From Lachnospiraceae bacterium (GTDB lineage Bacteria > Bacillota > Clostridia > Lachnospirales > Lachnospiraceae): 64,000 nucleotides of DNA. Shown piece by piece: positions 11,973 through 40,518 of this stretch. The position numbers were made by a program, and so were the translations under genes. The notes under the pieces were generated by a model that was given only the letters and a program-made list of their open reading frames with translations, had not been told where the DNA came from and did not search any database. Position 1 is the stretch's first letter. Every line of letters starts with the position of its first letter. The stretch spans positions 1 through 64,000 of the forward strand of contig SVEN01000004.1 of NCBI GenBank assembly GCA_015057365.1, written 5' to 3'.

Positions 11973-12000
11973 GATTTAATTTTAAATTCAGCAATTTTAA

Positions 12001-12025
12001 GGGGTCTGCACATTTCGCAGACCCC
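12001..12025 (+). terminator. Rho-independent-like terminator after mecA
   Basis: ggggtctgc-acatttc-gcagacccc. Confidence 0.75.
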
Positions 12026-12087
12026 TGTTTCATCTTTCAATACCATCTTTTTCTTCGACATCTTCGATGCTCTTTATTTTTCAGCTT

Positions 12088-14262: not shown

Positions 14263-15651
14263 TTAATATCCCTTAATAGACTTATCGCCCAATGCCGCGA
14301 AGAATGTATCCTTTACTTTCATCTCTGCATCAAAAAAGTACGGATAGCTTTCTAACTTAACGCCGAACATTCTCTCTCCGGAAACTTCATCAAAATACTC
14401 CTTCGGCTCATTCAGATAGCTGGTATCATCCGTAAGCCCTTCGAAGGTAATGCTTACAATATCATACCCCTTCTTCTGCTCATAATTTACCAAATTGGTC
14501 ATCAATGCCTTATAACGCTTTACACCTCTGGCAAGTAACTCCTCCGGTGTCAAATCAAAATCTCCCATATCATTCGTATTGGTATCTACGTAGAACTCGG
14601 TTACATGCAGCTCCACTCCGGTTGCCGCAAGGTTCTTAAACATATCGTCCATATCAAAGACATTCGGAACATTCGGATTATAATGTCCCTGGATCGCAAC
14701 ACCATCAATTAACTTCTGATCCTTTAACGAATTAATCATCGTTATTGCAGGCTTCTGGGTGGCCGCCAAATGCAAGTCGATCTGAGATAAAAACAGCTTC
14801 TGATCTGCTGTTGCATACTTTCTTGCATACTGACATGCGGTTACGTAATAATCCTCACCCATCCCCTGATACCAGTAATTCGAACGTACTTTATTGTCGT
14901 TTGTCTCGGCAGAATTAATCGGATCGTCCAAAATATCCCAAGAAACAACCAATCCCGGATAATTGGTATTACAATAGGTGATAACATCCTTTATGTAATT
15001 TTCCATACGGGCTTTAATCACCTCAGGAGACGCATACTCAATCGTCTTTGTCGTCGTACCGTCTTCATTGACAGTCTCCGTCACTTGTGCCCGGTCTAAA
15101 TCCTTGGTAAAGGCCCACTCCGGCACTTCATGGGTAATTAATTTCGGACCACGCACCGGAATTTGATTCTCCTGTGCAAATTTTAAAATCACATCAGCAC
15201 CGGAAAAATTCAAAGCAATCCGTGTCTTATCCGCTGCTACCTTCGATGTTTCATAATCCATAATATTGTTAGGAGACAAATCTCCCTTTACACTGACAGA
15301 GTTAAACTGTTCCTTAATGACAGCCTTTCTCTCTTCCTCCGTAACATCTATTACTAATGCATCAATGCCGACCGTGAATAAGTCCTTATAGGCCTCATCC
15401 AACTCCGGCAACTTATTTTCTTTTTCGTAGTATTCTTTAAATTGTTTTGTATCATACACACCGGCTTCTTCTACCTCACCGTTCTCTCCCGGCTGTTCCG
15501 CCACAGCCCCCGGTGTCGGAGTCGGTGCCGGTGTCACTGTCGGTCTCGGCGTAATGGTAGGAACCGGTCCGACTTCCACAGAACCGGAGCAACCCGCAAA
15601 AAGAAGTATCGCCGCACATGCTGCGAAACCTGCCAATTTCCCTTTTCTCAT
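14263..15651 (-). CDS. GH10 endo-1,4-beta-xylanase, lipoprotein
   Basis: Lipobox FAGC; VVSWDILDDPIN (acid/base region), GVAIQGHYNP, LHVTEFYVDT (nucleophile strand). Confidence 0.85.
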   Translation of the reverse strand: MRKGKLAGFAACAAILLFAGCSGSVEVGPVPTITPRPTVTPAPTPTPGAVAEQPGENGEVEEAGVYDTKQFKEYYEKENKLPELDEAYKDLFTVGIDALVIDVTEEERKAVIKEQFNSVSVKGDLSPNNIMDYETSKVAADKTRIALNFSGADVILKFAQENQIPVRGPKLITHEVPEWAFTKDLDRAQVTETVNEDGTTTKTIEYASPEVIKARMENYIKDVITYCNTNYPGLVVSWDILDDPINSAETNDNKVRSNYWYQGMGEDYYVTACQYARKYATADQKLFLSQIDLHLAATQKPAITMINSLKDQKLIDGVAIQGHYNPNVPNVFDMDDMFKNLAATGVELHVTEFYVDTNTNDMGDFDLTPEELLARGVKRYKALMTNLVNYEQKKGYDIVSITFEGLTDDTSYLNEPKEYFDEVSGERMFGVKLESYPYFFDAEMKVKDTFFAALGDKSIKGY

Positions 15652-15750
15652 ACGAAACACTCCTTTCCAATCACGTTCCCACCTATTTTTGGATAACACA
15701 TAAGGGGCAGTCAAAGCCACCCCTTATGTTGATATTCCTATGTTATTAAA

Positions 15751-17184
15751 TTACTGGTTAACCTCAGCAAGGATAGCATCCCAAGAATCCTTAATAGCTG
15801 CAACCTGGTCTGCCGGAGTTACGTTAGCAAACGGATACTGCCATAAGAGGTCCGGACCCAAATCGTTCGGAACGAGGGTCTGGTTAAGGAAGTGAGCGCT
15901 TACGCCGTCATTGAACATAACGATGGTCTCATCAACTGCTCTCTCATCCTCGAAGTGGTTGTAGTAGGTTTCCTTCCAAGCGTCCGGATCATCATAACCC
16001 GGGGTAGCCATGGTGTATACATTGTATGCGAATGCAATGTTACCAGCCATCTCTGCATCGTAGCAGGACGGGATGATGGTGATGTTATCACATACATAGC
16101 TCTTATAACTAGCTGCTCCGTCCGGCTTCGGCGGCATTACGAAACCAACTGCATCTTCCATGTCATCACCATAGATGTTGGTCGGCTGACAAACATACTC
16201 CTCAGCAAACTGCATTGCAGCCTTACCTTCCTGGAAAGCCGGAATGAAGTAGTCCCACTGAGAGTCTGCCGGCTGCGGCATCTCGTAACCCTTGTTGAAA
16301 AGCTCTACAGAGAAGTTGATTGCATCAAGAACTTCCTTGGAACCCATGTTGTTAACAAGGTTGCCGTTAGCGTCCTTTACAAAGTAGTCGGAACCGGTGG
16401 AAGCTACCAAACAGGTCATGGTCTGTGCACCCTGAGATACGGTAGCGTAGATATCGGTTACACCGTCAGCGTTGGTATCGCGGGTCAACTGAGCACAAAG
16501 CTCTTCGAACTTGGACCAGGTCCACTCACCGCTTGCCTGTAAATCGTACGGAAGATCCGGATTAAGACCAGCTTCCTCGAAAAGTCTCTTATTCCAAACA
16601 ACGCCACCTCTCGGCTCGGACTTCTGCGGTCTCATACCGTAGATGCTGTCGCCCTTGGTCATAAGGTTCTTAACTGCAACGCTCCACTTATCCTCAGAGA
16701 AGTCAAGCTCATCAAGAGTAGCTAAGTCATAGAAAAGACCGTTAGCCATCGGCTTTGCTACGAATCTGTAGTCAAGCTCGAATAACTGAGCTGCCGGCTC
16801 ACCAGCAGTGATGGAGTTTACACAGGTATCGGTCATTTCGCCCCAACCAGCAACAGTCTTAGACTGCATTCTGAACTTGTACTTTGCGAAAATCTCTTCA
16901 CGATACTTTGCGGTAGCCTCTTCCTGAGCGTTGGTCGGCTCAGCCGGCTCTTCCGGAGACCAGTGGTCACCGATGATGATTTCCATACCACCAAGATCTC
17001 TATCCGGGATCGGGGTTGCCTTCGGAGCTTCAGTTGCCTTCGGGCCTTCGGTCGGCTGCGGAGCCTCGGTTGCCGGGGCCTTCGTTGCCTCTCCGCCAGT
17101 TTCAGTGTCGCCGCCACATGCAGCAAGACTACCAAGAACGGTCGTTGCAGCAAGGAAAGCTGCAGCATACTTCTTAATTCTCAT
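15751..17184 (-). CDS. Carbohydrate ABC transporter extracellular solute-binding protein
   Basis: Lipobox LAACGG; SBP_bac_1-like features (GEWTWSKFEELCAQLTRDTNADGVTDIY). Confidence 0.9.
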   Translation of the reverse strand: MRIKKYAAAFLAATTVLGSLAACGGDTETGGEATKAPATEAPQPTEGPKATEAPKATPIPDRDLGGMEIIIGDHWSPEEPAEPTNAQEEATAKYREEIFAKYKFRMQSKTVAGWGEMTDTCVNSITAGEPAAQLFELDYRFVAKPMANGLFYDLATLDELDFSEDKWSVAVKNLMTKGDSIYGMRPQKSEPRGGVVWNKRLFEEAGLNPDLPYDLQASGEWTWSKFEELCAQLTRDTNADGVTDIYATVSQGAQTMTCLVASTGSDYFVKDANGNLVNNMGSKEVLDAINFSVELFNKGYEMPQPADSQWDYFIPAFQEGKAAMQFAEEYVCQPTNIYGDDMEDAVGFVMPPKPDGAASYKSYVCDNITIIPSCYDAEMAGNIAFAYNVYTMATPGYDDPDAWKETYYNHFEDERAVDETIVMFNDGVSAHFLNQTLVPNDLGPDLLWQYPFANVTPADQVAAIKDSWDAILAEVNQ

Positions 17185-17358
17185 ACCAAAATTCCTCCTT
17201 TTAATTTTTGGGTTTGGCGTCCCATTTTCGACGATAAATCGTCAACTCCTCTTTGTATAGCTAACGCTTCTGCGCCACTATCAAAATACTTCCAAACACA
17301 TTATAACGCATTTTGTTACAAAATGCTAGCTTTTTTTAAAAATAATTTGGTTTTTTTG

Positions 17359-18360
17359 TTACATTTTAATACCGGTCTGGCTCAAGCTCTCTACAAAGCC
17401 CTTCTGAGCGAACAGATAAAGGATTAAAAGAGGGATAATTGCCATCAAAGTACCGGTAGAAATCATCTGGTTTAACAAACCGGTACTTGCCTGGGTACCG
17501 AGACCCGAGGACTTTACGTAGGCATCGATACGTCCTGCAATGGAGTTTAAGCCCTTCGGCAACAGTTCTACCTTTCCAAGGAACATCTTGGAGTAGAAAG
17601 AATCGGTCCACTGCCATACATATGCAAACAGGAAGCAGGAAACAATCATGGACTTTGCATCCGGAAGCATAATACGGATGAAGGTCTGAAGATTGCCGCA
17701 ACCGTCTACGTAAGCTGCCTCTTCCAGTTCCTTCGGAACACCACGGAAGTACTGACGAAGCATGAAGATGTACAAACCACACTTAAGACCCATACAGGTC
17801 GCACACATCATCAGGTACGGTGCCATGGACTTCTGAAGATTTAAGCTGTCTCCGGTAATCGCCTTAAAGATACCGAAAATATCAAAGTAACGGAAGTTTA
17901 AGTACAACGGGCTCATGATGGTCTGCGGCGGTACAATAATTAATAACAGTACGCAACCGAACCAGAAATTCTTGAGCGGGAACTTAAATCTTGCAAAACC
18001 GTAACCTACGAGCGTAGCTGCAATAACCTGAAGCACCGCACAAAGAAGAGATACCCATGCGGAGTTAAACAAACACTTCCAGTAGTCGATTAACTCGTCT
18101 ACTATCTTAAAGTTACTTAAGGTCCAGTTACGCGGTACATTAATAACCGTTGCATCATACAGGTCCGCCTCTCTCATAAGGCTGACGGAAAGCTTGTTAA
18201 TTAACGGCTGGAGAATCAGGAAACACAGGCCGAACAGTAGCACTGCGCGAATAACGCGATATCCGACTTCTCCGATTTTTTTCTTAAGAAGATAACCGTT
18301 GGTCTTACGGTTTCTCTCCCAGAAATCCGTTCTCTTCTGAATTTTAACCTTTTTACTCAT
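17359..18360 (-). CDS. Carbohydrate ABC transporter permease (MalG/YtcP-like)
   Basis: EAA-loop ELEEAAYVDGCGNLQTFIRIMLPDAKS; about 6 TM; ATG 18360. Confidence 0.9.
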   Translation of the reverse strand: MSKKVKIQKRTDFWERNRKTNGYLLKKKIGEVGYRVIRAVLLFGLCFLILQPLINKLSVSLMREADLYDATVINVPRNWTLSNFKIVDELIDYWKCLFNSAWVSLLCAVLQVIAATLVGYGFARFKFPLKNFWFGCVLLLIIVPPQTIMSPLYLNFRYFDIFGIFKAITGDSLNLQKSMAPYLMMCATCMGLKCGLYIFMLRQYFRGVPKELEEAAYVDGCGNLQTFIRIMLPDAKSMIVSCFLFAYVWQWTDSFYSKMFLGKVELLPKGLNSIAGRIDAYVKSSGLGTQASTGLLNQMISTGTLMAIIPLLILYLFAQKGFVESLSQTGIKM

Positions 18361-19285
18361 AATAGTACACCTTCTTTGAAATGATGGCGGCCAAGATACC
18401 AAGAACTGCCGCAACGATTCCGAAATAGCTCCATGCCATTGCAGCACTTAAGCCGTATTCCATTTGCGGATTTACCTTCAAGGTGATCAGGTCCATGACT
18501 TGATTATCTGTTCTCATAAGGAAGTCAACCGTAGTGTAAACTAAGTTTACGAGTATCATTGAACTAACAAGCGGGAAAGTAATCTTCCAGAAGCTCTCCC
18601 ATGCGGTACAGCCCTCAATCTTTGCAGCCTCGTACATGCTGGTGGATACGGTCTGTAAACCGGAAATAAAGATAACAATCTGTATACCTGAAGCAAGTGC
18701 TACATCATACACACCCTCAATAATTTTAAATACCGGATCGAGAATCTTACCACCGATACCCGTGGTACGTAAAATTGTCTCTAATGAAGCGGTAATGCTG
18801 AAGCCCTCACCGGACTCTGCGATAATATCCTTCATACCGGACATCAAGGTGTTGTTGTACTCAAGACCTACAATAACACCGGAGGAGAGGATTACCGGCA
18901 GGAAGAAGATTGCTCTTACAAAGCCTCTGCCTTTAAACTCCTGATTCAGAAGCAACGCGATAAAGAAACTGAACACGATAATCGCCGGCACCTGAATCGC
19001 CATATTCTTAAGGGAATCTACCAAACGGTTTTTATAATCCGGATCGTAGAAGAATGCTCTGTAGTAGTTGGACTCTTTCCAAGTGGTAATACGCTCCATA
19101 ATGAAACCGTTGCCGCCTTCCTTCTGGGAAGCAGCGATAATAACCTTACTGAGACTCATTCGGAAGGACTCAATCATCGGCTTTACGAGGAATACCAGGA
19201 ATCCGATGATAAACGGAGAAATAAACATATATCCCGCAATTGCGTTTCGTCTGCGCAAATTTCTTGGTTTTCTTTTCTTAGCCAC
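18353..19285 (-). CDS. Sugar ABC transporter permease (MalF/LplB-like)
   Basis: STSMYEAAKIEGCTAWESFWKITFPLVSSM EAA loop; overlaps the next permease. Confidence 0.9.
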   Translation of the reverse strand: MAKKRKPRNLRRRNAIAGYMFISPFIIGFLVFLVKPMIESFRMSLSKVIIAASQKEGGNGFIMERITTWKESNYYRAFFYDPDYKNRLVDSLKNMAIQVPAIIVFSFFIALLLNQEFKGRGFVRAIFFLPVILSSGVIVGLEYNNTLMSGMKDIIAESGEGFSITASLETILRTTGIGGKILDPVFKIIEGVYDVALASGIQIVIFISGLQTVSTSMYEAAKIEGCTAWESFWKITFPLVSSMILVNLVYTTVDFLMRTDNQVMDLITLKVNPQMEYGLSAAMAWSYFGIVAAVLGILAAIISKKVYYYE

Positions 19286-21829
19286 TTACTTCTCACTCCT
19301 TTCTACCTTATAGTCTCTTGCCGGAATCGTAACTGCCTCATCCTTATACTCGGACGCTGTTGTATTTACATATACAACGGTATTGTCTTCGTATACGGTA
19401 GCGGTAACGCCGTTAGCCAGAATACGATGTTCGGTAATATACTTGTCGTTAAGACCTGCCATTTCCTTTTCATAACGCTGTGCATACTGTGCTGCCATGT
19501 CTTTCCAACCGTCATAGTTTGCACCGAAGAAATCCATGTACTCGGTACCCTGTAACAAACTGGAAGACTCTGCATAGAACGTAAAGTTGAGGCCGGCACC
19601 CGTCTCCGCACACTTTAATACGGTATCCAGTGCATCGCCGCTTAAGTTCACAGCATTTCCGGTATAATCTACCAAACCGTGGATTGCGATTTCATAGAAC
19701 GGAACCTGTGCATCGAAAAGCACATACTCCTTACCGGTAAGGTTCATATTGGTAATCAAATCTGCGTACGGAAGTGCATATTCGTTACCTGCAGACATCA
19801 TAATCGGAGTACCTGCTGCCTTAATCTCGGCAAGCTTTGCGGTCTGCATATCCATAACAGCTTCTCTGGTAGTCAGTCTCTTCTGATTGTAGTCACCGCT
19901 TAACAGGTAACCCACATCCTCAAAGCCTACACCCGTACCGTACTCGGCTGCGTAATCCCCAAGACTCTGCATTAAGGTTACACAAACCGTCGGTCTGAGT
20001 AAGAAATGGGACTCCATTCTGGACTCGTTCAAATCCGCAAACCAAATCTTGGAGAACTCCGGAATCTCTACTACTTCACGGCTGAGATACTTCGCCACAT
20101 CACGGGACTTAAAGAAACCGTCCGTCAAACCGCTGTCGTATACGTTCTGTACACGACCGGTCAGGTAAAGCTCTACACCGAGGCTGTCTGCCTTGGATAC
20201 GAGAGCGCTTAACGCTTTCTTGCCACCCATACCGTTGGTTATGTCAATATCCTTCGGAAGGGAGTGATCGATACCGCCGTTCATCCATCCGATATAGCGG
20301 AGGGAAAGATTGGAATATCCGTCATCTGCCAAATCAGACAAAATTGTCTGGGCATCATCAAAGCTGGTTAATACTTCCGGAAGCGTTACCGGCATACCGA
20401 GAACCTGCTTTACTCTGTCAACCGCACCGATTAACTCTACGGAAATCGGGAGATTTGCATTGGTATTCTTTGTAAGCTCGGTATACTTTTCAAGTAAATC
20501 TTCTCTGTAAGCATTTGCCATATCGGAGTAAGTGTTACCCTCTAAGAAACGATAGGTCTGCTTAATTCCGCCTTCCGGCAGCTCCTTCTCGTAAGCCATA
20601 AGCGTGGTATCGTTCTTAGCGGAAATATCCATCTTACTTCCGTGAACTACTTCATAACTTGCGTATGCGTAGTTATAGCTGTGCTTCTTATTTGCAACGT
20701 CTGCCTGAATGGTTGCAATGGTACTGTAATCATCAATGATACTGATCATGGAACCATCGGCATGGGAAATACCGAATACCGGGAATGCCGCTCTCGTCTC
20801 ATCTACGACTACGTCACGCTTCATGCCGTAATCCCAACCGTAAAGCTGTGCATAATAATTGGTAAGATTGGTCTTTCCGTTGTTAAAGTTAATGATAGCG
20901 CCGGAGCCTTCCGGAACAAACATAAAGCCGGTCTGGTCCGTGAACGCCGCACCGAAGTACGGGAGAACCGTAAGCTCGGTAATCGGACGCTCCATATCGA
21001 AATCCATGTCCGCAAACGGAACCTCTACAATGAGCTCGTCGCCGTCCAGATGATATACGATGGACAGATTATACACCTTAGCGGCATCCTCATTGGAAGC
21101 CTCATAATACTGAAGGTCCTTCTCGTACTCTTCCTCGGTATATCCGATTTCAGCAAATGCATCTTCCAAGGTCTGCTTTACATGGTCCTTGGTGGCGGAA
21201 CGAATCTCGAATACACAAGTGGTCTCTAAGTCCGGATACTTTGCAAGAAGCTCATCCTTATTATCGGTTGCAAGCAAATCGTTAATATCAATCTTACGAT
21301 ATGCATTGTCGATACGTCTCTGAATGCTTCTGTCAAGCTTCTCATACCACTCCATCATACGTGCTTCCGGCACGGACGGCGGAATGATAAACTTCTTGGA
21401 AACCTTACCGATGGAATAGTTTACCTTAACCGTGTTCGCATCCGGCATCTCTAAGGTATAGAGGCCGTTGGTGATACTATGCTCAAAGGTATTAAAAATC
21501 GTGGATAATTCGTTTGCCGTAGAATACTTCATAATGATTGTGGACTGCAACTGACGCTTACTTGCGGAGTCCGCAATCGGATCATTTGCGGCATCGGTCG
21601 GATTGGAATACCAAACCTTGCCGGTAGACTTCTGGGTTACGGTAAACTGTGTGGTAGCCTTATCCAGCTCAAAGATAAGGTCCTCACTCTCTAGTCTGAA
21701 ATCCATTCCTGCATATGCTTCTTCATCATACTCACGGAGCTCAATCTCCTTCTCTACCGTTTCCTCGGTACAGCCGGCAAGAGCACCTGCCAAAAGAAGG
21801 AATCCCAGTAATTTAATAAACTTTTTCAC
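19286..21829 (-). CDS. DUF5696-like lipoprotein, putative TIM-barrel glycosidase of unknown specificity
   Basis: Lipobox LAGC; N-terminal beta-rich region (TTQFTVTQKSTGKVWYSNP), central region with barrel-like strands (NLSLRYIGWMNGGIDHSLP, IWFADLNESR, GTGVGFEDVGYLLSGDY); operon with ABC permeases. Confidence 0.65.
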   Translation of the reverse strand: MKKFIKLLGFLLLAGALAGCTEETVEKEIELREYDEEAYAGMDFRLESEDLIFELDKATTQFTVTQKSTGKVWYSNPTDAANDPIADSASKRQLQSTIIMKYSTANELSTIFNTFEHSITNGLYTLEMPDANTVKVNYSIGKVSKKFIIPPSVPEARMMEWYEKLDRSIQRRIDNAYRKIDINDLLATDNKDELLAKYPDLETTCVFEIRSATKDHVKQTLEDAFAEIGYTEEEYEKDLQYYEASNEDAAKVYNLSIVYHLDGDELIVEVPFADMDFDMERPITELTVLPYFGAAFTDQTGFMFVPEGSGAIINFNNGKTNLTNYYAQLYGWDYGMKRDVVVDETRAAFPVFGISHADGSMISIIDDYSTIATIQADVANKKHSYNYAYASYEVVHGSKMDISAKNDTTLMAYEKELPEGGIKQTYRFLEGNTYSDMANAYREDLLEKYTELTKNTNANLPISVELIGAVDRVKQVLGMPVTLPEVLTSFDDAQTILSDLADDGYSNLSLRYIGWMNGGIDHSLPKDIDITNGMGGKKALSALVSKADSLGVELYLTGRVQNVYDSGLTDGFFKSRDVAKYLSREVVEIPEFSKIWFADLNESRMESHFLLRPTVCVTLMQSLGDYAAEYGTGVGFEDVGYLLSGDYNQKRLTTREAVMDMQTAKLAEIKAAGTPIMMSAGNEYALPYADLITNMNLTGKEYVLFDAQVPFYEIAIHGLVDYTGNAVNLSGDALDTVLKCAETGAGLNFTFYAESSSLLQGTEYMDFFGANYDGWKDMAAQYAQRYEKEMAGLNDKYITEHRILANGVTATVYEDNTVVYVNTTASEYKDEAVTIPARDYKVERSEK

Positions 21830-21848
21830 CTAATTTTCCTCCTTTCGT

Positions 21849-22517
21849 TTAGTTGAAGCGGAATATAAGTTCCTTGCCCACGGATACGAAGAATGCAATC
21901 GCATCGCTTACTAAGCTGAAGAACAACATGATTAAGAATACGATAATCATCATACCCACAACAGAGAATGCAATTGCAAGAATTGCCTTCATCAGAGAGT
22001 AGTCATGAATCTGCATTACGGAAATCAAAATCCATGCCCCCGCCCATACAAGAGCAATAACTTCAAAGTATGCAAGGAATGCACCCTCTTCTTTTGTTAA
22101 TACGTTACTGAGAATGGTAACCGGGTTCATAATGAGGATATACGGTGTCAGAGAATAACACATTCCCATATAAACATCCTTCATACGTCCCTTACCGTCA
22201 AACAACGTAGTCAGACACCAGTTTGCTACTACATAAAGCAGAAGCGGTGCCAAAATACCTGCAATCTGGGACCAGATGTTGATACGCTCCCAACGGGTAT
22301 CGTTAAACAGGAAGCTTTCAAAACGCAAATTCCAAAGATTCGTCATAAAGGTGAGAATCAACAGCGTATTTGCCGCTGCAAGGGAGCCTCTCTTTTCATG
22401 GGTCAAATCCCAGAATCCATCAAACGGATGCGTTAATACATACAGTGAATACCGAAGCGATTCCCAGTATCGGTTCCAAGCCTGCTTATTTATTTTTGTT
22501 TTCAGATTCAAACTCAT
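21849..22517 (-). CDS. YIP1-family membrane protein
   Basis: Polytopic ~222 aa protein; YVLTHPFDGFWDLTHEKRGS start and Yip1-like MGMCYSLTPYIL; overlaps upstream NHL gene by 32 nt. Confidence 0.7.
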   Translation of the reverse strand: MSLNLKTKINKQAWNRYWESLRYSLYVLTHPFDGFWDLTHEKRGSLAAANTLLILTFMTNLWNLRFESFLFNDTRWERINIWSQIAGILAPLLLYVVANWCLTTLFDGKGRMKDVYMGMCYSLTPYILIMNPVTILSNVLTKEEGAFLAYFEVIALVWAGAWILISVMQIHDYSLMKAILAIAFSVVGMMIIVFLIMLFFSLVSDAIAFFVSVGKELIFRFN

Positions 22518-24003
22518 ACTGCATTCTCGCCTCCCATCTGATCTTTTTAATCTTTCTGATGATAGCCGGGATAATCCCCAGTACTACCAATACTATAATT
22601 ACATAACCGAGATTATTCTCGATCCAGTCCTTACGATAATACTTCCATGCACGGGAGTAGTTCTCATCGTCACGCATTACTTCAAAGTACTCCATTGCCT
22701 CCTCGTAATTCTGCTGACGAAGAAGCGCACGACCGATACCGATGTAAGCCAGCTCGTAGTTACCGTTCATGGCAAGTACCTTCTCCCAATGTGCTGCGGA
22801 TTCCTCGTAGTGGCCTTCGGAATACTCATCCAATGCACTGTGAATCAGGTTACCGAACTCGGTTCTGGTAAATCTGGTAATACCACCGGTGGTCGTATCC
22901 AGAATATAAAGGTCGGTTCCCATATGCTCGATGGAAATCGGATACATGAAGTAACCCAGCTTGTTACCCGGACCACCGAAAGCGTACAACAGATGACCCT
23001 GCTCGTCGTATGCAAAGATACGTCCACGGATACGATCCGCTACGTAGTAGGTCTCATCCTCCATTGCGGTAATGTCCACAATTCGGGACGGACCGTTCAT
23101 GCCTGCCGCATCATCCCACTGCCAGTCGCCGCACGGAACCCATCCGCCGTTACGAATAAGAATATCGCCGCCGAGAGAGTTTAACTTACGAATCGGCTTT
23201 GCGGTACCCGCATCCAAATCCTCCTCAGCAAATACATCCGTGGTACAGTAAATAAAGGACTTCTGGTCAATGTAAAGGTTGTTGTACTCCGTCGGTACAA
23301 AGTCAACCATCTGGTCTCTCTGTGCCTTGGTGGAAAACTTTTTCTTAATAAGATCCATTACACTGACAGTAACTTCACTTGCACCGATAAAGCCGACAAA
23401 CTCGCCGTCCGGCTCAAACTGCATAACACCCTGGTTCTCGTTCTTTGCAAGAACGAACATACGGCCTGCACGGTCTACAACAATCTTCTTCGGCTCAAAC
23501 GGATTCTCCGCATCCAGAAGCGTACTGTCCGGCTTGCCCATTTCCTTCACCAACTGCAAATCCTTGGTCAAATGAAGAATTCTGAAGTTACCCTGGTCGG
23601 TAATGTACAAATCACCGTTGGTGTCCACATATACATCCTGCGGAGTCAAAAGTGTCAGCACCTCGGATTCACCGGTAAACTCGGTAATCTCTCTGACCAC
23701 CGTCATAGTCTCACCGTCTACCGCAATCTCTACGATACGGTTGTTTCCGGTATCAACCACATAAATGCTGTTGTCGCGGATAAACATACCCTGTGCCTGC
23801 TTAAACGGGGTAATCCCCAACATCTTACCGTCGGTATAAGACACCGGCTGGTAAGCATCCGGAGACTCATACTCCAGTCCCCAGTAGTCATAGTTATACG
23901 TATACGTATTTACTTCGGTTGCACTGGCAACTCCGGTCGGACAGGCAGTAATGACTGCCATTACCACAAGGAGAGCTGCTGCAATTTTTCTTTTAAGCTT
24001 CAT
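22486..24003 (-). CDS. Secreted/membrane-anchored NHL-repeat (beta-propeller) protein with TPR segment and C-terminal TM
   Basis: Signal peptide; repeated NHL-like blades (QDVYVDTNGDLYITDQGNFRILHLT, IYVVDTGNNRIVEI); TPR-like HYEESAAHWEKVLAMNGNYELAYIGIGRALLRQQNYEEAMEYFEV; C-terminal TM. Confidence 0.8.
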   Translation of the reverse strand: MKLKRKIAAALLVVMAVITACPTGVASATEVNTYTYNYDYWGLEYESPDAYQPVSYTDGKMLGITPFKQAQGMFIRDNSIYVVDTGNNRIVEIAVDGETMTVVREITEFTGESEVLTLLTPQDVYVDTNGDLYITDQGNFRILHLTKDLQLVKEMGKPDSTLLDAENPFEPKKIVVDRAGRMFVLAKNENQGVMQFEPDGEFVGFIGASEVTVSVMDLIKKKFSTKAQRDQMVDFVPTEYNNLYIDQKSFIYCTTDVFAEEDLDAGTAKPIRKLNSLGGDILIRNGGWVPCGDWQWDDAAGMNGPSRIVDITAMEDETYYVADRIRGRIFAYDEQGHLLYAFGGPGNKLGYFMYPISIEHMGTDLYILDTTTGGITRFTRTEFGNLIHSALDEYSEGHYEESAAHWEKVLAMNGNYELAYIGIGRALLRQQNYEEAMEYFEVMRDDENYSRAWKYYRKDWIENNLGYVIIVLVVLGIIPAIIRKIKKIRWEARMQYEFESENKNK

Positions 24004-24015
24004 AATTCTCTCCTC

Positions 24016-24879
24016 CTATTCCTTAATACCCGAGCTAGCCATCGTCTCTAAGATGTTACTCTCGGAGAAGATGAAGATACCTACCGGAACAATTAACATA
24101 ACCAGACCAACCGCCGCGCCGGCACCCATACGGGCAACACCACCCTGGGTAACCTGACCAAGCGCATACGGAAGAGTCTTTAACTCCTCGGAATAAATGT
24201 AGGTGGACTGCGGATTATTCCACAACTCCTGTACTGCGAAGATAATCAAGGTCAACCATGCCGGCTTTACGTTCGGCATTACGATCTTTGTAAAGATACC
24301 CCACTCCTTCGCACCGTCAATCTTCGCTGCCTCAAGCAAAGAATTCGGAAGACCGTCCATGAACTGCTTCATAAGGAAGAGACCCATCGGAGCGGCAAGT
24401 GCCGGAACAATCGGAGCCAGGAAGGTATCAATCCAACCGAACTTCGCAAATACAAGGTACAGCGGAATCTGGGTAACATAGCCGTTAAACATAATCGCTG
24501 TCGTAATCATGGCAAACAACTTTCTTCCGCCTGGGAAATCATACTTTGCAAGTACATATGCACCCATGGATGCAATTAAGAGACGGCCTGCGGTACCTAC
24601 TGCCGTAATAAATACGGTGTTGAATATGTATCTGGAGAACGGTACCCAGGACTGACCCATAATTACGAACAAATCCTTAAAGTTGCTGGTCGTAGGGTTT
24701 CGAACCAAAATGGTCTGCGGGAACTTGAAAAGTTCGTCCAACGGCTTAAATGCCTGACACACCTGCATGACAAGCGGAATGGCAAACATTACGCCGAACA
24801 ATGTTAAAATGATATATACGCCAAGGTCGCCGCCACGGGAACGGCCCGGCTTTCTGCGCTTTAATCTAATCTTTTTCAT
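24016..24879 (-). CDS. Carbohydrate ABC transporter permease (MalG-like)
   Basis: EAA loop NSLLEAAKIDGAKEWGIFTKIVMPNVKPA. Confidence 0.9.
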   Translation of the reverse strand: MKKIRLKRRKPGRSRGGDLGVYIILTLFGVMFAIPLVMQVCQAFKPLDELFKFPQTILVRNPTTSNFKDLFVIMGQSWVPFSRYIFNTVFITAVGTAGRLLIASMGAYVLAKYDFPGGRKLFAMITTAIMFNGYVTQIPLYLVFAKFGWIDTFLAPIVPALAAPMGLFLMKQFMDGLPNSLLEAAKIDGAKEWGIFTKIVMPNVKPAWLTLIIFAVQELWNNPQSTYIYSEELKTLPYALGQVTQGGVARMGAGAAVGLVMLIVPVGIFIFSESNILETMASSGIKE

Positions 24880-24938
24880 CGCTTCTCTCCTTTTCCTGTA
24901 TTAAAAATCTATGCTTCATTCTTATCATCAAGTGCGGA

Positions 24939-25883
24939 TTAGTTTCCGACTCTCATTAACAACTTCTGAACTGCCTTATTGCAAAGAAGCATTGCAAGGA
25001 AAAGAACGGTAGCGATTGCAGACGCATAACCCATCTCAAAACGGACACTACCATAGTCCTTTAAGTGTGTAACAACGGTATGCACCGCATAGTCCGTACT
25101 CGGATTACCACACAACTGCTCCGGAATATCGGATACGTTGAACGCGGTGGTAATGGAGTTGATTGCACCGAACATAAGCATCGGCTTCATGCTCGGAAGA
25201 GTGATGTACCAGAGCTCCTGCATACGGTTCTTCAAACCGTCTACGTAAGCCGCCTCGTACTGGGAACGGTCAAGTCCCTGGAAACCTGCTACGAAACCAA
25301 GGAAACCGGCACCCAAACTGGACCATACGGAAACAACGATTACTACAATTAACATGTACTGCGGATTGGATAACCACAAAATCGGCTCTACACCGAACAC
25401 CTGCAACAGCGAGTTAATCCAGCCGTACGGGTCATTGTTGAAAATAATCTTCCAAATTGCCATAGTGGAAGCTACCGCAAGAGACGGTGCGTAGAATACA
25501 ACTACGGCAATCGCTCTTAAGTAACGCGGCAATTCGTTAATCATCCATGCGAACAGGAAGGATGCAAGATAACCTACCGGTCCGATGATGCCTGCCAATA
25601 CGAATGTATTCTTAACGGATGTCAGGAATACGTCATCGGCAAGAATTAAGTTGATATAGTTCTGCATGCCACGGAATTCCGGCGGCTCCAACACGTTAAA
25701 GTAGGTGAAGCTTAAGAACAGGGACATTGCAATCGGAACGATGTAACACAGTGTGAATAACAACAGGTAAGGCAGAATGAACAGGTAACAGGTCTTATTG
25801 GCCTTCGCCTTTTTCCACATAATCTGACGTTCCAGCTTTTTCTTACGCATATAAAGCGCAAGCGTACTATTTTTATTACTCAT
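24939..25883 (-). CDS. Sugar ABC transporter permease (MalF-like)
   Basis: QYEAAYVDGLKNRMQELWYITLPSMKPM EAA loop; ATG 25883. Confidence 0.9.
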   Translation of the reverse strand: MSNKNSTLALYMRKKKLERQIMWKKAKANKTCYLFILPYLLLFTLCYIVPIAMSLFLSFTYFNVLEPPEFRGMQNYINLILADDVFLTSVKNTFVLAGIIGPVGYLASFLFAWMINELPRYLRAIAVVVFYAPSLAVASTMAIWKIIFNNDPYGWINSLLQVFGVEPILWLSNPQYMLIVVIVVSVWSSLGAGFLGFVAGFQGLDRSQYEAAYVDGLKNRMQELWYITLPSMKPMLMFGAINSITTAFNVSDIPEQLCGNPSTDYAVHTVVTHLKDYGSVRFEMGYASAIATVLFLAMLLCNKAVQKLLMRVGN

Positions 25884-25896
25884 GTCATCCTCCTTT

Positions 25897-28821
25897 CTAT
25901 TCGATTTCAATCTCTAAACCGAACTCTTCACGTTTCTTCGTGATCTCGTCGTTAATAGTATCTACATAGTCAAGCAAGGTCTCACGCGGATCCAGTTTCT
26001 CGTTATAAACCTTACGAGCCGCATTGGTAATGTGACGGGTTACAAAGTAACCGCCCGGGATTTCCGGAACCTGCTCGGTCCAGGACCACTGCTCTCTTAA
26101 GACTGCCATTTCGTCCGCACTCCACGGAAGCTCCTCGAAGGAAATCTTATTTGCGGTCTGGAATCTTGCAGCGGAGCCCATAACTGCCTCCAGCTCACGA
26201 CCGTATCTGGTCTGGGTCTCGGAATCGGTCCACCACTTCATGAACTCCCAGCACTTCTGAGTCATTTCATCGGAACGCTCATCATTCTTAAGAATCATAT
26301 TAGAGGTTCCCCAGGAGGATGCAGAACGATCAATGGTGCCGTCCTTCAGCTCCGTACCAGGAATCAGGGAGAACTCCCAAAGTCCTCTGATTTCCGGCGC
26401 CGATACTGCCAAGGTATTGTAGGTATCGTAGTCCTGCATACCCAGCGGCATCTCTCCGGAACGGAAACGGTTCGCAAAGTCATACGCCAGTGGGAGTCCG
26501 TAATGGCTGTAGAATCTGGTATACATCTCAAATGCCTTAATACCGGCTTCGCTGGCAAGAGTACTCTTGGTCAGCTTATCGTTATACATGGTGCCGCCGT
26601 TCTGATATACCAAAGCGATGTAGGTAGAAAAGTCCGGATTCGCCGTACCGGAAATCAAACGCTCGGTGGACGGAATCGCAACCTCCAAATTGTTCTGCTG
26701 TAAGGTCGGCAACATGTCGATTAAGTCGTCCCATGTATCCGGAGCCGCTACGCCGAGTTCCTCCATAATATCGGTACGATAGAACATTACATTATATACG
26801 TGGGTCAACGGAATACCGTACAAATCACCTTCGAAATAGTACGGAGCCATTGCACTGGCCGGATACTGGGCAACTACCTCTTCCCAGCCCTCGAACTTGT
26901 TCAGCGGCTCTGCCGCATCACGAAGTGCATAGTTGACCGGGTCACCCTGTGCCATCTGAATCGCAACATCCGGACCGGTACCTGCCAGGGTTGCGTTCAA
27001 TACCATGTTGGACATCTGGATTACTTTTACGTTAACCGGAATACCGGTCTCCGGGGTGAATACATCATCCACAAGAGTCTTTAATACGTTACTCTGGTCA
27101 CGACCGCTTACAATCCAAACCGTAACTGCCTCTTCATCCTCGTATACATCACCGAGAGCATCATAGTCCACGGTAAAGGAAGCGATAAAGGAACGAACGG
27201 TATGACCGATACTCTTAAAGATACTGGTCTTTACTTCCTCCGGCTCCTTGTTTGCACCGGTAATGGTAATCAAATCCACATCCAGCGGAGCCTCTGCCAG
27301 AGTCATAATAGAAGTACCCACGGAACTGATGTTACTCTTAAAGGTTGCAAACTGCTTGGAAATCTTCTCCGGCTTCTTAATAAAGGTCTCCATCTGCTTT
27401 GCAAGCTTCTGAACGTTTGCAACATCACCGGAAATCTCACCGGTATATGCCTTATACTCGTCAACCGTCTTATACAGACGCTTATACTCAAGCTCCATCG
27501 CTTCCATAACTTCCGGGAATACCTTATCTAAGTCATAGTCACGATTACGATCCGGAGTCGCACCGGTTAATACGAGAATGGTACGATACATATCATTCAT
27601 GCGAATAACAGAATCCTGCAACTCGTTTAAGATACTACCCATCTCACCCATGGTTACTTCCATGCGGATGGTATGGGTACCTGCGGTCAGGTAGATATCA
27701 TACGGTGTGCCTTCCTCATCAGCCAGAGTCACGTTCTGCCAGTCTGTGGAATACGGGAATGCCACCGTGGACAACTCCTCGAACGGAATCACACCATCAA
27801 TATAGATTGCACGGTTGGATACACGACCACGGTTATAGGACTGACGTGCCTTTACGGTAATGTTATAGAAGCCGTCTGCCGGAACCGTCATATCCCACTC
27901 GATCCACTGACCTGCCACACGCCACTGCTCACCGCCGCCGTAGTTTAACTTGGTCTGAGTTACACTGTACGGTTCCGTATTTGCAGACGCATGGTCGGAA
28001 CGGGAGTACAAGGACTGTGCGGAACGCACTGTGGAGTCCTCACCCTGAATTTTGTCAAAGTGATCTGCTCCTCCGGATACCTGCGGACAAGCCGCAAGAT
28101 ACTCTGCATAAGTCAGAGCCTTTTCTACCGGCACGATGGAAATCTTGCGGATTGCCATCGGCTCGTTGACACAGTCAAGCGCAATGGTATTGGCACCTGC
28201 TTCGAAATAAAACTCATACGGTTCTGTGTAATATCCCATGTAGTCCGTAAAGTAAGCGGAACACCAATCCGGCTTCTCCTTCTGGGCCGGACGACGATCG
28301 TTACCCTGGTTATCGGTAACAATTGCGGTTGCATCTGCCCAACGTCTCGTAAAGGTGATAGCATCGGAACCGGTAAACGGCAGCTCCCCATTAATTAAGA
28401 AGCCTCGTTCCATACTTACTCCTCGGGACTCCACCGGATAATACTCAATATATGCACGATACAATCCCGCCTCCGGAACCGTTACCTGCCATTCGGTATA
28501 TCCGCCGTCTCCCTGATAAAGAACGGTATCTTCACCCTGATAGTCGGTGAGAATCTGGGTATTCTCTGCTGTAGAAGCATTATACTTCGTGAGATCTACC
28601 ACGATTTCGTCAACCTGCGGTCTGGAAGCATTCTCATGTGTCTTAAGATATGCGGCATAGGTATCGGTACGTTCGAATTCGCCGTCGGTCTCAAGATTTG
28701 CTCCCGCGTACTTTTCACTGAAGTCTTTATCGCCGCCGAGTAGCTTGCTACATAACACAATCACTGCCACTACTGCCACGATTCCGACTACAGTAAGGAA
28801 TATTCTCTTTCCTTTTGACAT
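25897..28821 (-). CDS. Extracellular solute-binding protein with two N-terminal CBM-like beta-sandwich domains
   Basis: N-terminal TM/signal; two carbohydrate-binding-like repeats (EWQVTVPEAGLYRAYIEYYPV; EWDMTVPADGFYNITVKARQSYNRGRVSNRAIYIDG); C-terminal SBP_bac_1-like region (VWIVSGRDQSNVLKTLVDDVFTPETGIPVNVKVI). Confidence 0.82.
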   Translation of the reverse strand: MSKGKRIFLTVVGIVAVVAVIVLCSKLLGGDKDFSEKYAGANLETDGEFERTDTYAAYLKTHENASRPQVDEIVVDLTKYNASTAENTQILTDYQGEDTVLYQGDGGYTEWQVTVPEAGLYRAYIEYYPVESRGVSMERGFLINGELPFTGSDAITFTRRWADATAIVTDNQGNDRRPAQKEKPDWCSAYFTDYMGYYTEPYEFYFEAGANTIALDCVNEPMAIRKISIVPVEKALTYAEYLAACPQVSGGADHFDKIQGEDSTVRSAQSLYSRSDHASANTEPYSVTQTKLNYGGGEQWRVAGQWIEWDMTVPADGFYNITVKARQSYNRGRVSNRAIYIDGVIPFEELSTVAFPYSTDWQNVTLADEEGTPYDIYLTAGTHTIRMEVTMGEMGSILNELQDSVIRMNDMYRTILVLTGATPDRNRDYDLDKVFPEVMEAMELEYKRLYKTVDEYKAYTGEISGDVANVQKLAKQMETFIKKPEKISKQFATFKSNISSVGTSIMTLAEAPLDVDLITITGANKEPEEVKTSIFKSIGHTVRSFIASFTVDYDALGDVYEDEEAVTVWIVSGRDQSNVLKTLVDDVFTPETGIPVNVKVIQMSNMVLNATLAGTGPDVAIQMAQGDPVNYALRDAAEPLNKFEGWEEVVAQYPASAMAPYYFEGDLYGIPLTHVYNVMFYRTDIMEELGVAAPDTWDDLIDMLPTLQQNNLEVAIPSTERLISGTANPDFSTYIALVYQNGGTMYNDKLTKSTLASEAGIKAFEMYTRFYSHYGLPLAYDFANRFRSGEMPLGMQDYDTYNTLAVSAPEIRGLWEFSLIPGTELKDGTIDRSASSWGTSNMILKNDERSDEMTQKCWEFMKWWTDSETQTRYGRELEAVMGSAARFQTANKISFEELPWSADEMAVLREQWSWTEQVPEIPGGYFVTRHITNAARKVYNEKLDPRETLLDYVDTINDEITKKREEFGLEIEIE

Positions 28822-29049
28822 AGTTTTCTCCTTTCTTTGTGCATATTCCCTTTGCACAACGATTTGTCTTTACGACAAACCAAAGCCGATGCACACCGCA
28901 ATAAGGCCGTTTGCACAGCCTTTTCGCAAAATGTGAGTCGGCTTTCTTCCCTCTGGAAATAATTACCAAAGGGGAGCTTTTTCGGATTTTGTACATTATT
29001 ACCAAAAACCGCACGTTCCAAAAAAGCATTTTTTGTAGCGTATAGTACC

Positions 29050-29080: not shown

Positions 29081-29370
29081 CAAATATTGCTTTCGGAACC
29101 TTCATCTATTGCTCCGTTTTGTCGCATTCTGTAGGAATCGGGCTAATTTTAAATGGCCTCTTTACAACCTACTACAATTATATTATGATATTTGTATAAT
29201 TTCAAGTATAAAATGCGCTTTTCAAGAAGTTTTTTTATGCATTTTATCCCCCGTTTTTTCAGCCGCAGCAATAGCAATTTTTGATAAAATGGATGTATTT
29301 ACTTTTTATTGTTGTATCTGCGTGCGGTTTTCGTCAAATTTGCCAACAATTGTACGGAGGTATCACATTT

Positions 29371-30348
29371 ATGCAGAATAATAACAAACTCTCTTATGAC
29401 ACCGCCTACTGGATGGAGTTGCGCAAAAAAACCTTGGAGCGTAACGCCTCCTTCCGAAAAAGAGTTATTACGGGAACTCACGAGCAGACACACTATTCCG
29501 AAGACAACTCCTCCGTATTCCTTTGGATTAATACGGAACCGGGGAGTTTTCCCCTCCACTGGCATTCCACCGTGGAAATCGTTATGCCCCTTCAAAACAC
29601 TTATACCGTCACAATGAACAAAAGCACCTATGAACTGCAAGAACAGGAAATCTTCATCATTCCGCCGGGAGAATTACACGAGCTGACGCCGCCATCTTCC
29701 GGATTCCGGTTAATTTTATTGTTTGACCTGAATGCACTGAATAAGTTCAAAGGCTTCACCCGGCTTTTTTCCCTGTTTTCTCTTTCCAGCCACATTACAC
29801 CCGAGACCATGCCGGAAATCTACGAAAAGGAGCGGGAGCTTTTGTTACAGGTTGCGGAAGAATATGCCGACGGCGGTGATTTGGCGGAGCCATCCATTCT
29901 CGCTCTTCTGATTCAGTTTTTTGTGCTCCTGGCCCGCAATACGGAAGAAGCCGTGCCTGCTTCTCTTCCGGCCATGCAGCCCAACAAGCAAAGAGAATAT
30001 ATCGAAAAATTCAATACCGTCTTCGATTACATTGAACACCATTACATGGAAGACATCACCTTAGACGGAGTTGCGGCTCAAATCGGTTTTTCCAAGTTCC
30101 ATTTTTCCCGGCTGTTCCGGCAATTTACCGACACCTCCTTCTACGATTACCTCTGTGCAAGAAGAATCAAAGCAGCCGAAACGCTTTTGCTGGATCCGAA
30201 TCTTCCGATTACCGAAGTAGCATTACAATCCGGCTTTGCCAGCATTTCCACTTTCAACCGGGTATTTAAGAAATTCAAAGAATGTACTCCGACCGAATTC
30301 AAGGATTTTAACAAAGAAAACAGTCGTGTTAAATCCAGACGTCATTGA
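29371..30348 (+). CDS. AraC-family transcriptional regulator with N-terminal cupin
   Basis: LHWHSTVEIVMPLQNTYTVTMNKSTYELQEQEIFIIPPGELHEL; C-terminal HTH VAAQIGFSKFHFSRLFRQFTDTSFYDYLCARRIKAAETLLLDPNLPITEVALQSGFASISTFNRVFKKF; SD acggagg before ATG 29371. Confidence 0.93.
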   Translation: MQNNNKLSYDTAYWMELRKKTLERNASFRKRVITGTHEQTHYSEDNSSVFLWINTEPGSFPLHWHSTVEIVMPLQNTYTVTMNKSTYELQEQEIFIIPPGELHELTPPSSGFRLILLFDLNALNKFKGFTRLFSLFSLSSHITPETMPEIYEKERELLLQVAEEYADGGDLAEPSILALLIQFFVLLARNTEEAVPASLPAMQPNKQREYIEKFNTVFDYIEHHYMEDITLDGVAAQIGFSKFHFSRLFRQFTDTSFYDYLCARRIKAAETLLLDPNLPITEVALQSGFASISTFNRVFKKFKECTPTEFKDFNKENSRVKSRRH

Positions 30349-30390: not shown

Positions 30391-30452
30391 AATATTCACG
30401 CGGGCATGCAAACTCTGCATGTCCGTTGTTTTATAACAAAGGAGGACTAAAA

Positions 30453-31766
30453 ATGAAAAAGTGGAAAAAATTATTTGCCGTTACAGCTGTAACCGCTCTG
30501 GTATTTGCCATGGCTGCCTGCGGTAATAAGGAAACATCCGCAGATCCGACGGAAGCTCCGAACCCGACCAAAGCTCCGGCCGAACCGACACAGGCCCCGG
30601 CTGAGCCGACAGAAGTTCCGGCCGAGCCGACAGATACTCCAGCCGAACCTACGGAAGCTCCGACTGAGCCAACGGAAGTTCCGGCCGAACCGACCGAGAC
30701 TCCGGCTGAACCGACCAAAGCGCCGGTTGAACCAACGGAGCCGACCGCTGAACCGACCGAACCGACCGCTGAACCGACCAAAGCGCCGGTTGAACCAACC
30801 AAAGCTCCGGCCGCGCCGACACAGGCTCCCGCGGGCAATGACACCGTTATCAACTTCGTTGACCTCACCGCAGGCGGTTACGGCTACGAAGCGGTTACCG
30901 AGGCTGACGGCGTAAACGTCACCATCGCAAGTCAGTACCAGGAAATCCAGTATGTTCTTCCGGAAGTTGTGGATTTAGCACAGTACAGCCTGCTTATTGT
31001 TGACGTAACCTCCAACAACCAGCTGGATATTAAACTGGTAAATCCGGATGCTGCCTTAAACGAGTACAATCAGGCAACTCCGTTCAAGGACAACTACACC
31101 GCAGAAGGCACTGCAATCACCGAGCCGGTGTACATCGACCTTGCCGGGTTTTCCGATTACGACCTTTCACAGATTAACTTCATGGCAATGGCAAACGACA
31201 CCGCATTCAGATTAAACAGCATGACCTTCGTAAAGGCCGAGGGCGGCTCGTCGGCGGAGACTCCTGCTCCGACTCCTACCCCGGAACCGACTCAGGCTCC
31301 GGAATCAACAGAAGATCCGTCGGAACCGGCCGACACTCCGAACCCGACCGAAGCTCCGGTTAGCGACAACAACACAATCAACTTTGCAGACCTTATGGAG
31401 GGGGGCTACGGCTATGAAGCAACCGTTGCCGACGGCGTTGTGAAGGTAACAATTTCCGCTCAGTATCAGGAGCTCCAGTACATCCTTCCGGAAGCCATTG
31501 ATTTAGCGCAGTACAAGACTCTTATTGTTGATGTTGTCTCCAACAGCCAATTGGATATTAAGCTTGTAAATCCGGAAGCAGAATTAAACCAGTACGGTCA
31601 GGCAGCTCCGTTTGCCGACTGCTACACCGCAGAAGGTGATGCAATCACCGAGCCGGTGTACATCGATCTTGCAAACTATGCCGATTATGATCTTTCCCAG
31701 ATCAACTTCATGGCAATGACCAACGATTGCGAATTCACACTGAACAATATGACCTTCGTGAAGTAA
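30453..31766 (+). CDS. Lipoprotein with long Pro/Thr/Glu-rich linker and two tandem homologous beta-rich domains
   Basis: Lipobox MAACGN; PTEAPxxP repeats; duplicated domain (INFVDLTAGGYGYEA... / INFADLMEGGYGYEA...; NFMAMANDTAFRLNSMTFVK / NFMAMTNDCEFTLNNMTFVK). Confidence 0.85.
   Translation: MKKWKKLFAVTAVTALVFAMAACGNKETSADPTEAPNPTKAPAEPTQAPAEPTEVPAEPTDTPAEPTEAPTEPTEVPAEPTETPAEPTKAPVEPTEPTAEPTEPTAEPTKAPVEPTKAPAAPTQAPAGNDTVINFVDLTAGGYGYEAVTEADGVNVTIASQYQEIQYVLPEVVDLAQYSLLIVDVTSNNQLDIKLVNPDAALNEYNQATPFKDNYTAEGTAITEPVYIDLAGFSDYDLSQINFMAMANDTAFRLNSMTFVKAEGGSSAETPAPTPTPEPTQAPESTEDPSEPADTPNPTEAPVSDNNTINFADLMEGGYGYEATVADGVVKVTISAQYQELQYILPEAIDLAQYKTLIVDVVSNSQLDIKLVNPEAELNQYGQAAPFADCYTAEGDAITEPVYIDLANYADYDLSQINFMAMTNDCEFTLNNMTFVK
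30540..30830 (+). repeat. Degenerate GC-rich coding repeats (PT linker)
   Basis: Repeated gccgaaccgac / gctccggcc units encoding (P-T-x-A-P-x-E)n. Confidence 0.85.
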
Positions 31767-38925: not shown

Positions 38926-40518
38926 CTAACGAAATATTAACTTTTCCTCAAACTCCGGATCCGCATTCTGCGGCAACGCATACAGACTGGTGGTCAAATC
39001 GGAAAGGTCCGACTTCGGCTCCTTGCCGTATAAATGATAATCCGCAAAATCCAGCAGATACACCAAATCAGAATCCGTCACCATATGTCCGGACGGATGT
39101 AAGCATACCGCCAAGTGGTCTCCGATTCCCATGTAGTCAAACAAATCCTTGGAAGCCAGATAATTCATCCACATAGCCGGAGCGTTTACCCAGTCCTCGT
39201 CGCAGTAGGAGCCGGAAATAAACAGGTAACGGTCGCCTCTTCCGCAAAGGGCGGATAGCATATACTGCTCAAGCGGAAGCACCGTCTCATCTTTGAACAC
39301 CTGGAAATTGTCGTTGAACCAGTGCCCTTCGCTGGAACTGCGAAGACTTCCGATGGGCTCGTTCTGTCCGAATTTATAAGCACTGCCGCGATCAATGGCG
39401 GTGTAATCATACTCCGTTCCTTCGGATACATAACGATACAATGCAATACCGCCGGCTCCCGAGCAGGACGGCGCCGTAATCTTAATACGCGGTTCCAGTG
39501 CTCCCGCCACCGCGGTAGCCTTACCGAACCGGGATACGCCGGTCATCAAAAAGTCCGTGGTGGTCAGACCAAGCTCTTCCGCGGCACCGTTCTCCAGCGC
39601 ATCAATGGCCTTGGAAACACTCCAGCCCCAAGCCGCCAGCACGCCGGTCTGCTCTTCCCAGGTATCTCCGTACGGATACAAGTCGTAAAATACACCGGTC
39701 CGGGACGAATTATCCGCCGCAATCTCCATCGGATTAATGGAGAGCACCGCATAGCCCCGCTCGTTGGCGTAGTCCGTCTTCATCAGACCGAAAATCGAAA
39801 ACAGCACCGGTGCTTTTTCGTAAACCTTGTTCGTCGGCAATGCCAGAGTCACCTTATAGGAAGCAGACTTCTCACCGTTATTTACCGTCACCGTCATCTC
39901 ATTGTCTTGTACTGCGTAGGTCACCGTTTCCTTTGTCGCATCCGGCATCGGGCCGTACATATAGTACTCATACATGTGCTTCATCTCTTCCAGACGCTCA
40001 TCAAACTCCTCCGGGCTTGTTACCGGACGTCCGTCCAAAAAGGTATACGGATCCGGCATCTCAATTGCCTCCGTAAACTTAGACGGGTCCGGAAGACCGT
40101 ACTTATTCACCAAATTGGCAATAGTCTCTCTCAATTCCTTTAACATATCGTTGTATTCCTGCTGGGAAACAAGTTCCGTCTCCCCCTTTGCCACCAACGC
40201 ATCCGCCTTATCAAAGGCCGCCTGCAACGTGTCACCGTTTTGATACTGACCAAGGTCCGTATACTGCTCCTTCATCAGCTTCATCTGCCCCAGTAACAAT
40301 TGCGGATTACCCGCTCCTGCCGGACGTTTTGTCGGCTTTGCAGTCATCTCCTCCTGTTCTTTATTCTCAGGCTCCGGCGTGGTCGCATCCTCTGCCGGTG
40401 TCTGTGTTACTTCTTCCTGAAGAGATGCCGTCGGTGTCACATCCGTAGCCTGTCCCGCACTACAGCCGGCCAGGCACAATACAACCGCCATCATCCCCAA
40501 TACCAGTTTCCTTCTCAT
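38926..40518 (-). CDS. CE15-like (glucuronoyl esterase-type) lipoprotein esterase
   Basis: Lipobox CLAGCS; LAAWGWSVSKAIDAL, TGVSRFGKATAVAGALEPRIKITAPSCSGAGGIALYR, EGHWFNDNF; neighbours GH67. Confidence 0.75.
   Translation of the reverse strand: MRRKLVLGMMAVVLCLAGCSAGQATDVTPTASLQEEVTQTPAEDATTPEPENKEQEEMTAKPTKRPAGAGNPQLLLGQMKLMKEQYTDLGQYQNGDTLQAAFDKADALVAKGETELVSQQEYNDMLKELRETIANLVNKYGLPDPSKFTEAIEMPDPYTFLDGRPVTSPEEFDERLEEMKHMYEYYMYGPMPDATKETVTYAVQDNEMTVTVNNGEKSASYKVTLALPTNKVYEKAPVLFSIFGLMKTDYANERGYAVLSINPMEIAADNSSRTGVFYDLYPYGDTWEEQTGVLAAWGWSVSKAIDALENGAAEELGLTTTDFLMTGVSRFGKATAVAGALEPRIKITAPSCSGAGGIALYRYVSEGTEYDYTAIDRGSAYKFGQNEPIGSLRSSSEGHWFNDNFQVFKDETVLPLEQYMLSALCGRGDRYLFISGSYCDEDWVNAPAMWMNYLASKDLFDYMGIGDHLAVCLHPSGHMVTDSDLVYLLDFADYHLYGKEPKSDLSDLTTSLYALPQNADPEFEEKLIFR

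Follow-up and report, generated by a model that had tools for sequence, protein, structure and literature searches.

Bacillota are among the main degraders of plant fiber in the gut, and their uptake of sugars is usually described as the work of a simple binding protein, permeases, and a shared ATPase. An operon of a Lachnospiraceae bacterium, carried in a 64,000-nucleotide stretch of DNA that we analyzed as a whole (here called the window), sets three further proteins among its permease genes: an NHL beta-propeller/TPR protein, a YIP1-family membrane protein, and a DUF5696 lipoprotein. Do these proteins belong with the transporters, and what could they contribute to uptake?

Layout of the gene run and conservation of its order

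The first-pass annotation of this DNA had described a single minus-strand run encoding a solute-binding protein with CBM-like domains, two permeases, an NHL-TPR protein with a transmembrane (TM) segment, an overlapping YIP1 protein, a DUF5696 lipoprotein, and a second permease pair. The description was confirmed, and every listed gene is a continuous open reading frame (ORF) on the minus strand. The genes are as listed, but the conserved unit is larger than was proposed, since it includes a second solute-binding protein, SBP2, and the second permeases are part of its core rather than a separate pair. From 28857 down to 15751 of the minus strand, the order is SBP1(CBM)–PermA–PermB–NHL/TPR/TM–YIP1–DUF5696–Perm2A–Perm2B–SBP2, and a GH10 xylanase and a GH3 glycosidase then continue this single run down to 12088.

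The first gene, here and in the 62 complete orthologous modules, is SBP1 (25897 to 28857; 986 aa), with an N-terminal membrane segment, a CBM6/CBM35-like region whose matches fall under the Pfam cut-off, and a C-terminal ABC solute-binding domain (SBP_bac_8, 84 bits); its start is a GTG at 28857, with an alternative ATG at 28821, which was the end given by the first-pass annotation. It is followed by the CUT1-type ABC permeases PermA (24939 to 25910; BPD_transp_1, 58.7 bits) and PermB (24016 to 24879; BPD_transp_1, 41.6 bits), and then by the 505-aa NHL beta-propeller/TPR protein (22486 to 24003; NHL, 43 bits in Pfam), in which hydropathy marks a signal segment and one C-terminal TM segment. 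The gene for the 222-aa YIP1 protein (21849 to 22517; Yip1, PF04893, 42.1 bits against a curated cut-off of 28.6) shares a 32-base overlap with that for the NHL protein and is the sole YIP1 gene found in the source genome. Next come the 847-aa DUF5696 lipoprotein (19286 to 21829; PF18952, 596.8 bits against a cut-off of 25.6, over profile positions 1-612; lipobox LAGC) and, following it on the same strand as in the surveyed modules, the ABC permeases of the second pair, Perm2A (18353 to 19285) and Perm2B (17359 to 18447; Pfam match). The real start of Perm2B is probably near 18360, judging from the length of its orthologues. The lipoprotein SBP2 (15751 to 17184; 477 aa; SBP_bac_1, 68.8 bits; lipobox LAAC), which had fallen outside the region first annotated, is ninth in the conserved order. 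The GH10 xylanase (14263 to 15720; Glyco_hydro_10, 144.6 bits) is a local cargo gene of the operon, and the GH3 glycosidase (12088 to 14241; Pfam match) is its probable final gene, with a strong hairpin directly beyond it (12000 to 12026, a consensus-type match only).

Intergenic gaps in the run are short or absent, with the exception of about 175 bases ahead of SBP2. Inside this Perm2B/SBP2 gap lies a hairpin, GCATTTTG-TTA-CAAAATGC (17308 to 17326), which could set the level of SBP2 separately. Upstream of SBP1, on the minus strand, is a candidate promoter, TTGAAA-17-TATAAT (29177 to 29205; 11/12 matches, a consensus match only), and a divergent AraC-family regulator with a cupin sensor domain is encoded on the plus strand (29281 to 30348; HTH_18, 80.5 bits; AraC_binding, 28.6 bits).

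Conservation of the run was surveyed in related loci, of which the best 80 were taken with their flanks, one genome per species, with profile searches performed on all ORFs. The complete order SBP1-PA-PB-NHL-YIP-DUF-P2A-P2B-SBP2 was present in 62 of these best 80 loci; nearly all of the others are broken by contig ends, and L055 and L086 have no recognizable SBP2. The best 80 loci span Lachnospiraceae, other Clostridia, and at least 10 records of Treponema or other Spirochaetaceae, and 40 further loci from distant Clostridia and other Bacillota genomes carry the same core with few rearrangements. The nine-gene order, kept by many gut bacteria, is far beyond chance. Adjacency in a single genome, and nothing more, would favor reading these genes as ordinary neighbors, assembled by chance or in a single recent transfer; against this, the order recurs across 120 surveyed loci, in distant families and two phyla and with gene fusions, which leaves that reading with hardly any probability. 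We rejected it on this recurrence.

The same association is visible at the level of whole genomes. Among 291 Clostridia genomes, the YIP1 subfamily was present in 62, each of which (62/62) also carries DUF5696, and full-type DUF5696 was present in 65, of which 62 have the YIP1 subfamily (Fisher P about 3e-60, uncorrected for phylogeny). The DUF5696 gene lies within 3.5 kb of 79 of the 81 YIP1 matches; in one of the two exceptions the DUF5696 gene is split and lies at a distance of 3.6 kb (G037), and in the other the two genes sit at the ends of two contigs (G162). These counts strongly support the earlier suggestion that DUF5696, YIP1, and NHL beside permeases form one functional unit, and the platform is found in about a fifth of the sampled Clostridia genomes. 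DUF5696 is apparently split or interrupted at G037 C1:507334-512713 and G193 C1:743491-746012 (a separated N-terminal fragment; an internal TGA).

Over 59 complete modules, mean identity is lowest for SBP2 (39%) and highest for PermA/PermB (about 70%). The divergence of YIP1 follows Perm2A/2B most closely, and that of NHL follows DUF5696 and SBP1; the correlation reaches 0.94 for YIP1 with Perm2A and for NHL with SBP1, values confounded by shared phylogeny. As a sign of coupling among components, this correlated divergence is only suggestive. Some loci encode further proteins downstream of SBP2 (such as L063:16547-17509 and L061:17058-18239, from clusters present in 20 and 10 loci) that have no Pfam match.

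The NHL–YIP1 protein

NHL-TPR and YIP1 are a single ORF in 36 of the 81 YIP1 matches, roughly 680-830 aa long (one shorter or partial), and we checked this fusion by domain coordinates in seven loci. Because they are fused so often, NHL and YIP1 physically belong together. An AF2 model of a fused homologue (pLDDT 90, pTM 0.80) places a beta-propeller first, then TPR helices, a long helix with a membrane segment, and the YIP1 helices. Foldseek matched this model to NHL-domain structures (E 1e-16), and a sequence search of YIP1 against the PDB gave no match.

We propose that NHL-TPR-YIP1 would serve as a membrane scaffold joining both permease pairs, with the propeller outside the membrane and the YIP1 helices within it, beside Perm2A/2B. 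It might instead be a regulatory or assembly factor, one that would, for example, gate or fold the permeases or place them in the membrane, and not a link between two importers. YIP1 proteins elsewhere have roles in membrane organization, and the protein stays in a short unit without SBP1-PA-PB, so a single locus does not always need a link between importers. We nonetheless judge a regulatory role unlikely, given that co-occurrence and position are fixed and that protein-docking scaffolds are the more typical setting for a fused extracellular propeller with TPR.

The first-pass annotation saw the NHL, YIP1, and DUF5696 proteins as surface parts, and they could be pictured as an outer complex capturing polymeric glycan on the cell surface. 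The DUF5696 lipobox, the CBM-like region of SBP1, and the extracellular propeller all stand and agree with such a picture. Complete modules, however, are present in Treponema, and because Treponema has an outer membrane, the site of action is placed at the cytoplasmic membrane and need not be a capture surface that faces outward. In an unsystematic look, the cluster showed no LPXTG, SLH, or outer-membrane partner, and we consider outer capture improbable, more so than a regulatory role for NHL–YIP1.

DUF5696 and the GH129 catalytic residues

A profile built from 27 DUF5696 sequences matches GH129 structures. The AF2 model of DUF5696 (pLDDT 86, pTM 0.82) gave the same answer in Foldseek, where the top eleven matches were all GH129 (ZgGH129, then NagBb; E 1e-34 to 1e-24, TM by target 0.71-0.74), followed by GH101, GH36, and GH31. 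Judged by these models, DUF5696 is a GH129-fold protein. In Pfam, the window protein matches DUF5696 only and not Glyco_hydro_129 (PF11308), a family with no match in the source genome and none in 349 genomes sampled phylum-wide; because PF11308 is absent from these, GH129-like comparison sequences were limited to four.

In a phmmer search of one GH129-like sequence against the PDB, NagBb was matched weakly (E 4e-4), and from this alignment we read D435 and E478, which we take to be the catalytic nucleophile and the acid/base, respectively; the title of entry 8rzk names D486N in ZgGH129. A joint alignment puts the nucleophile column at D638 of the window protein and the acid/base column at 679/680, where the protein has Asp638 and Ser679-Ala680. 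MAFFT aligns D638 with an Asp of all 13 stand-alone relatives examined (13/13), and the hhalign register is two residues off. As read from these alignments, loss of the acid/base residue is independent of the register at 638, which is uncertain by two residues.

Across 129 distinct module members, Asp638 is present in 96 and any Glu at 678-681 in 19; the GH129 acid/base Glu is missing in 110, including the window protein. At most 11 of the 129 keep plausible versions of both catalytic residues, and these copies may be active. Asp and Glu are both kept in 13/13 stand-alone DUF5696 relatives, which belong to a set of 16 shorter DUF5696-like genes (about 560-600 aa) that never have YIP1 nearby. 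Those at L159-L171 (e.g., L161 and L163), also of about 560-600 aa, carry the motifs HYID and SEG/SES. From their residues, the stand-alone proteins look like an unassigned group of active glycosidases.

DUF5696 of the module is probably a former sugar-cutting enzyme whose cutting residues are gone, and residue conservation does not support a plain active GH129. A more qualified version would have it work outside the cell as a glycosidase that uses an unusual proton donor, trimming oligosaccharides just before import and only positioned by NHL–YIP1. The GH129 fold agrees with this, as do D638 in 71 of the best 80 close orthologues and a minority of proteins with a KEG motif, which places a Glu at the acid/base site. 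We find an active enzyme unlikely nonetheless, to about the same degree as a regulatory NHL–YIP1, because about 85% of module members lack the acid/base and about a quarter lack the nucleophile-equivalent Asp, and because retention of the gene beside xylan, mannan, pectin, and RG-II enzymes is ill-suited to a linkage-specific hydrolase. Of the "capture/processing complex" of the first-pass annotation, the functional unity is strongly supported, with the fusion of NHL and YIP1 counting toward it; "processing" is doubtful because the acid/base residue is usually missing.

Cargo, proposed import platform, and known systems

The enzymes around the module vary. Several genomes have about ten or more DUF5696 genes against three to a few SBP1 genes (approximate counts, since some matches are pieces of a single gene), the excess arising because the shorter unit NHLYIP-DUF-P2A-P2B-SBP2 has multiplied. 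These units adjoin genes for GH106, GH31, GH42, GH43/GH10/GH3, pectate-lyase, rhamnogalacturonan-lyase-like, and apiosidase proteins, others adjoin GH26 or GH9, and flanking enzymes across the loci also include GH67 and GH115. The original focus on xylan did not hold: in other genomes the module adjoins xylan, mannan, pectin, or RG-II enzymes, and a xylan-specific role for the accessory proteins is ruled out. One locus (L136:10525-18000) has a tandem row of SBP2-like genes after the module, with four full-length paralogues, 56-83% identical to each other, and two overlapping fragments resembling one broken gene.

Farther along the window are genes for GH43, GH67 glucuronidase, UxuA, a glucuronoyl-esterase-like protein, and an arabinofuranosidase-like protein, and because of these the local cargo is read as glucurono(arabino)xylan. 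The glucuronoyl-esterase domain protein (38926 to 40518; Pfam GCE_fung, 118 bits) adjoins UxuA and GH67, which together make up a glucuronoxylan side-chain pathway. An ORF at 30426 to 31766 has no Pfam match; its product is secreted lipoprotein-like, has proline-rich repeats of the PTEAP type, and contains a beta-rich region in two similar copies.

With slightly less than even confidence, we propose that the nine genes encode a single platform that imports oligosaccharides released from complex plant glycans. Their status as a unit rests on the observed gene set, order, co-occurrence, and fusions; gene order and fusion suggest a complex, and family membership suggests transport. SBP1 and SBP2 would serve two pairs of CUT1 permeases, which a shared ATPase encoded elsewhere would drive. 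The lipoprotein-anchored DUF5696 would be mainly a glycan-binding subunit, not a hydrolase, that holds the bound chain and passes it to the binding proteins and permeases. Substrate choice would lie in the variable SBP2 and the nearby enzymes, with NHL–YIP1, DUF5696, and the permeases as the constant platform, and the cargo in the window would be glucurono(arabino)xylan. A bolder form, which we hold as possible at well below even chance, is a single membrane supercomplex in which NHL–YIP1 bridges the two ABC importers, a noncatalytic GH129 barrel on top threads or holds long branched oligosaccharides, and SBP2 is exchangeable.

In a study of xylan and pectin use by Butyrivibrio, CUT1 transporters were the most induced genes, and NHL and Yip1 go unmentioned (PMC6344614). 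The literature searched, which left most subscription journals outside its scope, had no mention of DUF5696, nothing relevant on YIP1/NHL with transporters and glycoside hydrolases, and no published description of the combination, its universality, or the role of DUF5696; the transporters themselves are of known kind. A nine-gene platform that is fixed, includes two constant undescribed proteins, and is multiplied in some genomes suggests an extra layer of machinery. DUF5696, which has no described function, would become a glycosidase fold turned transport part, and annotators would be able to use the module as a marker of glycan-import loci and of the substrates these take up.

Several known systems share features with the module. 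Like CUT1 ABC sugar importers that use a shared ATPase of the MsmX type, it has solute-binding proteins, each with two permeases (two full sets by Pfam), and no nucleotide-binding subunit among the operon ORFs; at other sites the genome carries two genes with a MalK OB domain, one of which may supply it. The module departs from these importers by combining two such sets with three constant accessory proteins in a single fixed operon. GH129 glycosidases (NagBb, ZgGH129) share their fold with most of DUF5696, but the module protein mostly lacks the acid/base Glu, has a large N-terminal extension, and always occurs with transporter genes. As in Gram-positive polysaccharide utilization loci, an ABC transporter, an AraC regulator (at 29281), and glycoside hydrolases are found together, with GH10 and GH3 in line and GH43/GH67 and others nearby; to our knowledge, described loci of this kind have no NHL–YIP1 or DUF5696 platform. 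SusC/SusD of Bacteroidota is likewise a constant import platform, multiplied per genome and paired with different enzymes. The module differs in working at the cytoplasmic membrane with ABC permeases and shares no homology with it, and Pfam gave no TonB-dependent transporter or SusD domain among the module proteins. If it exists, the supercomplex would serve Bacillota and Spirochaetota as a general machine for glycan import, with a role comparable to that of SusCD.
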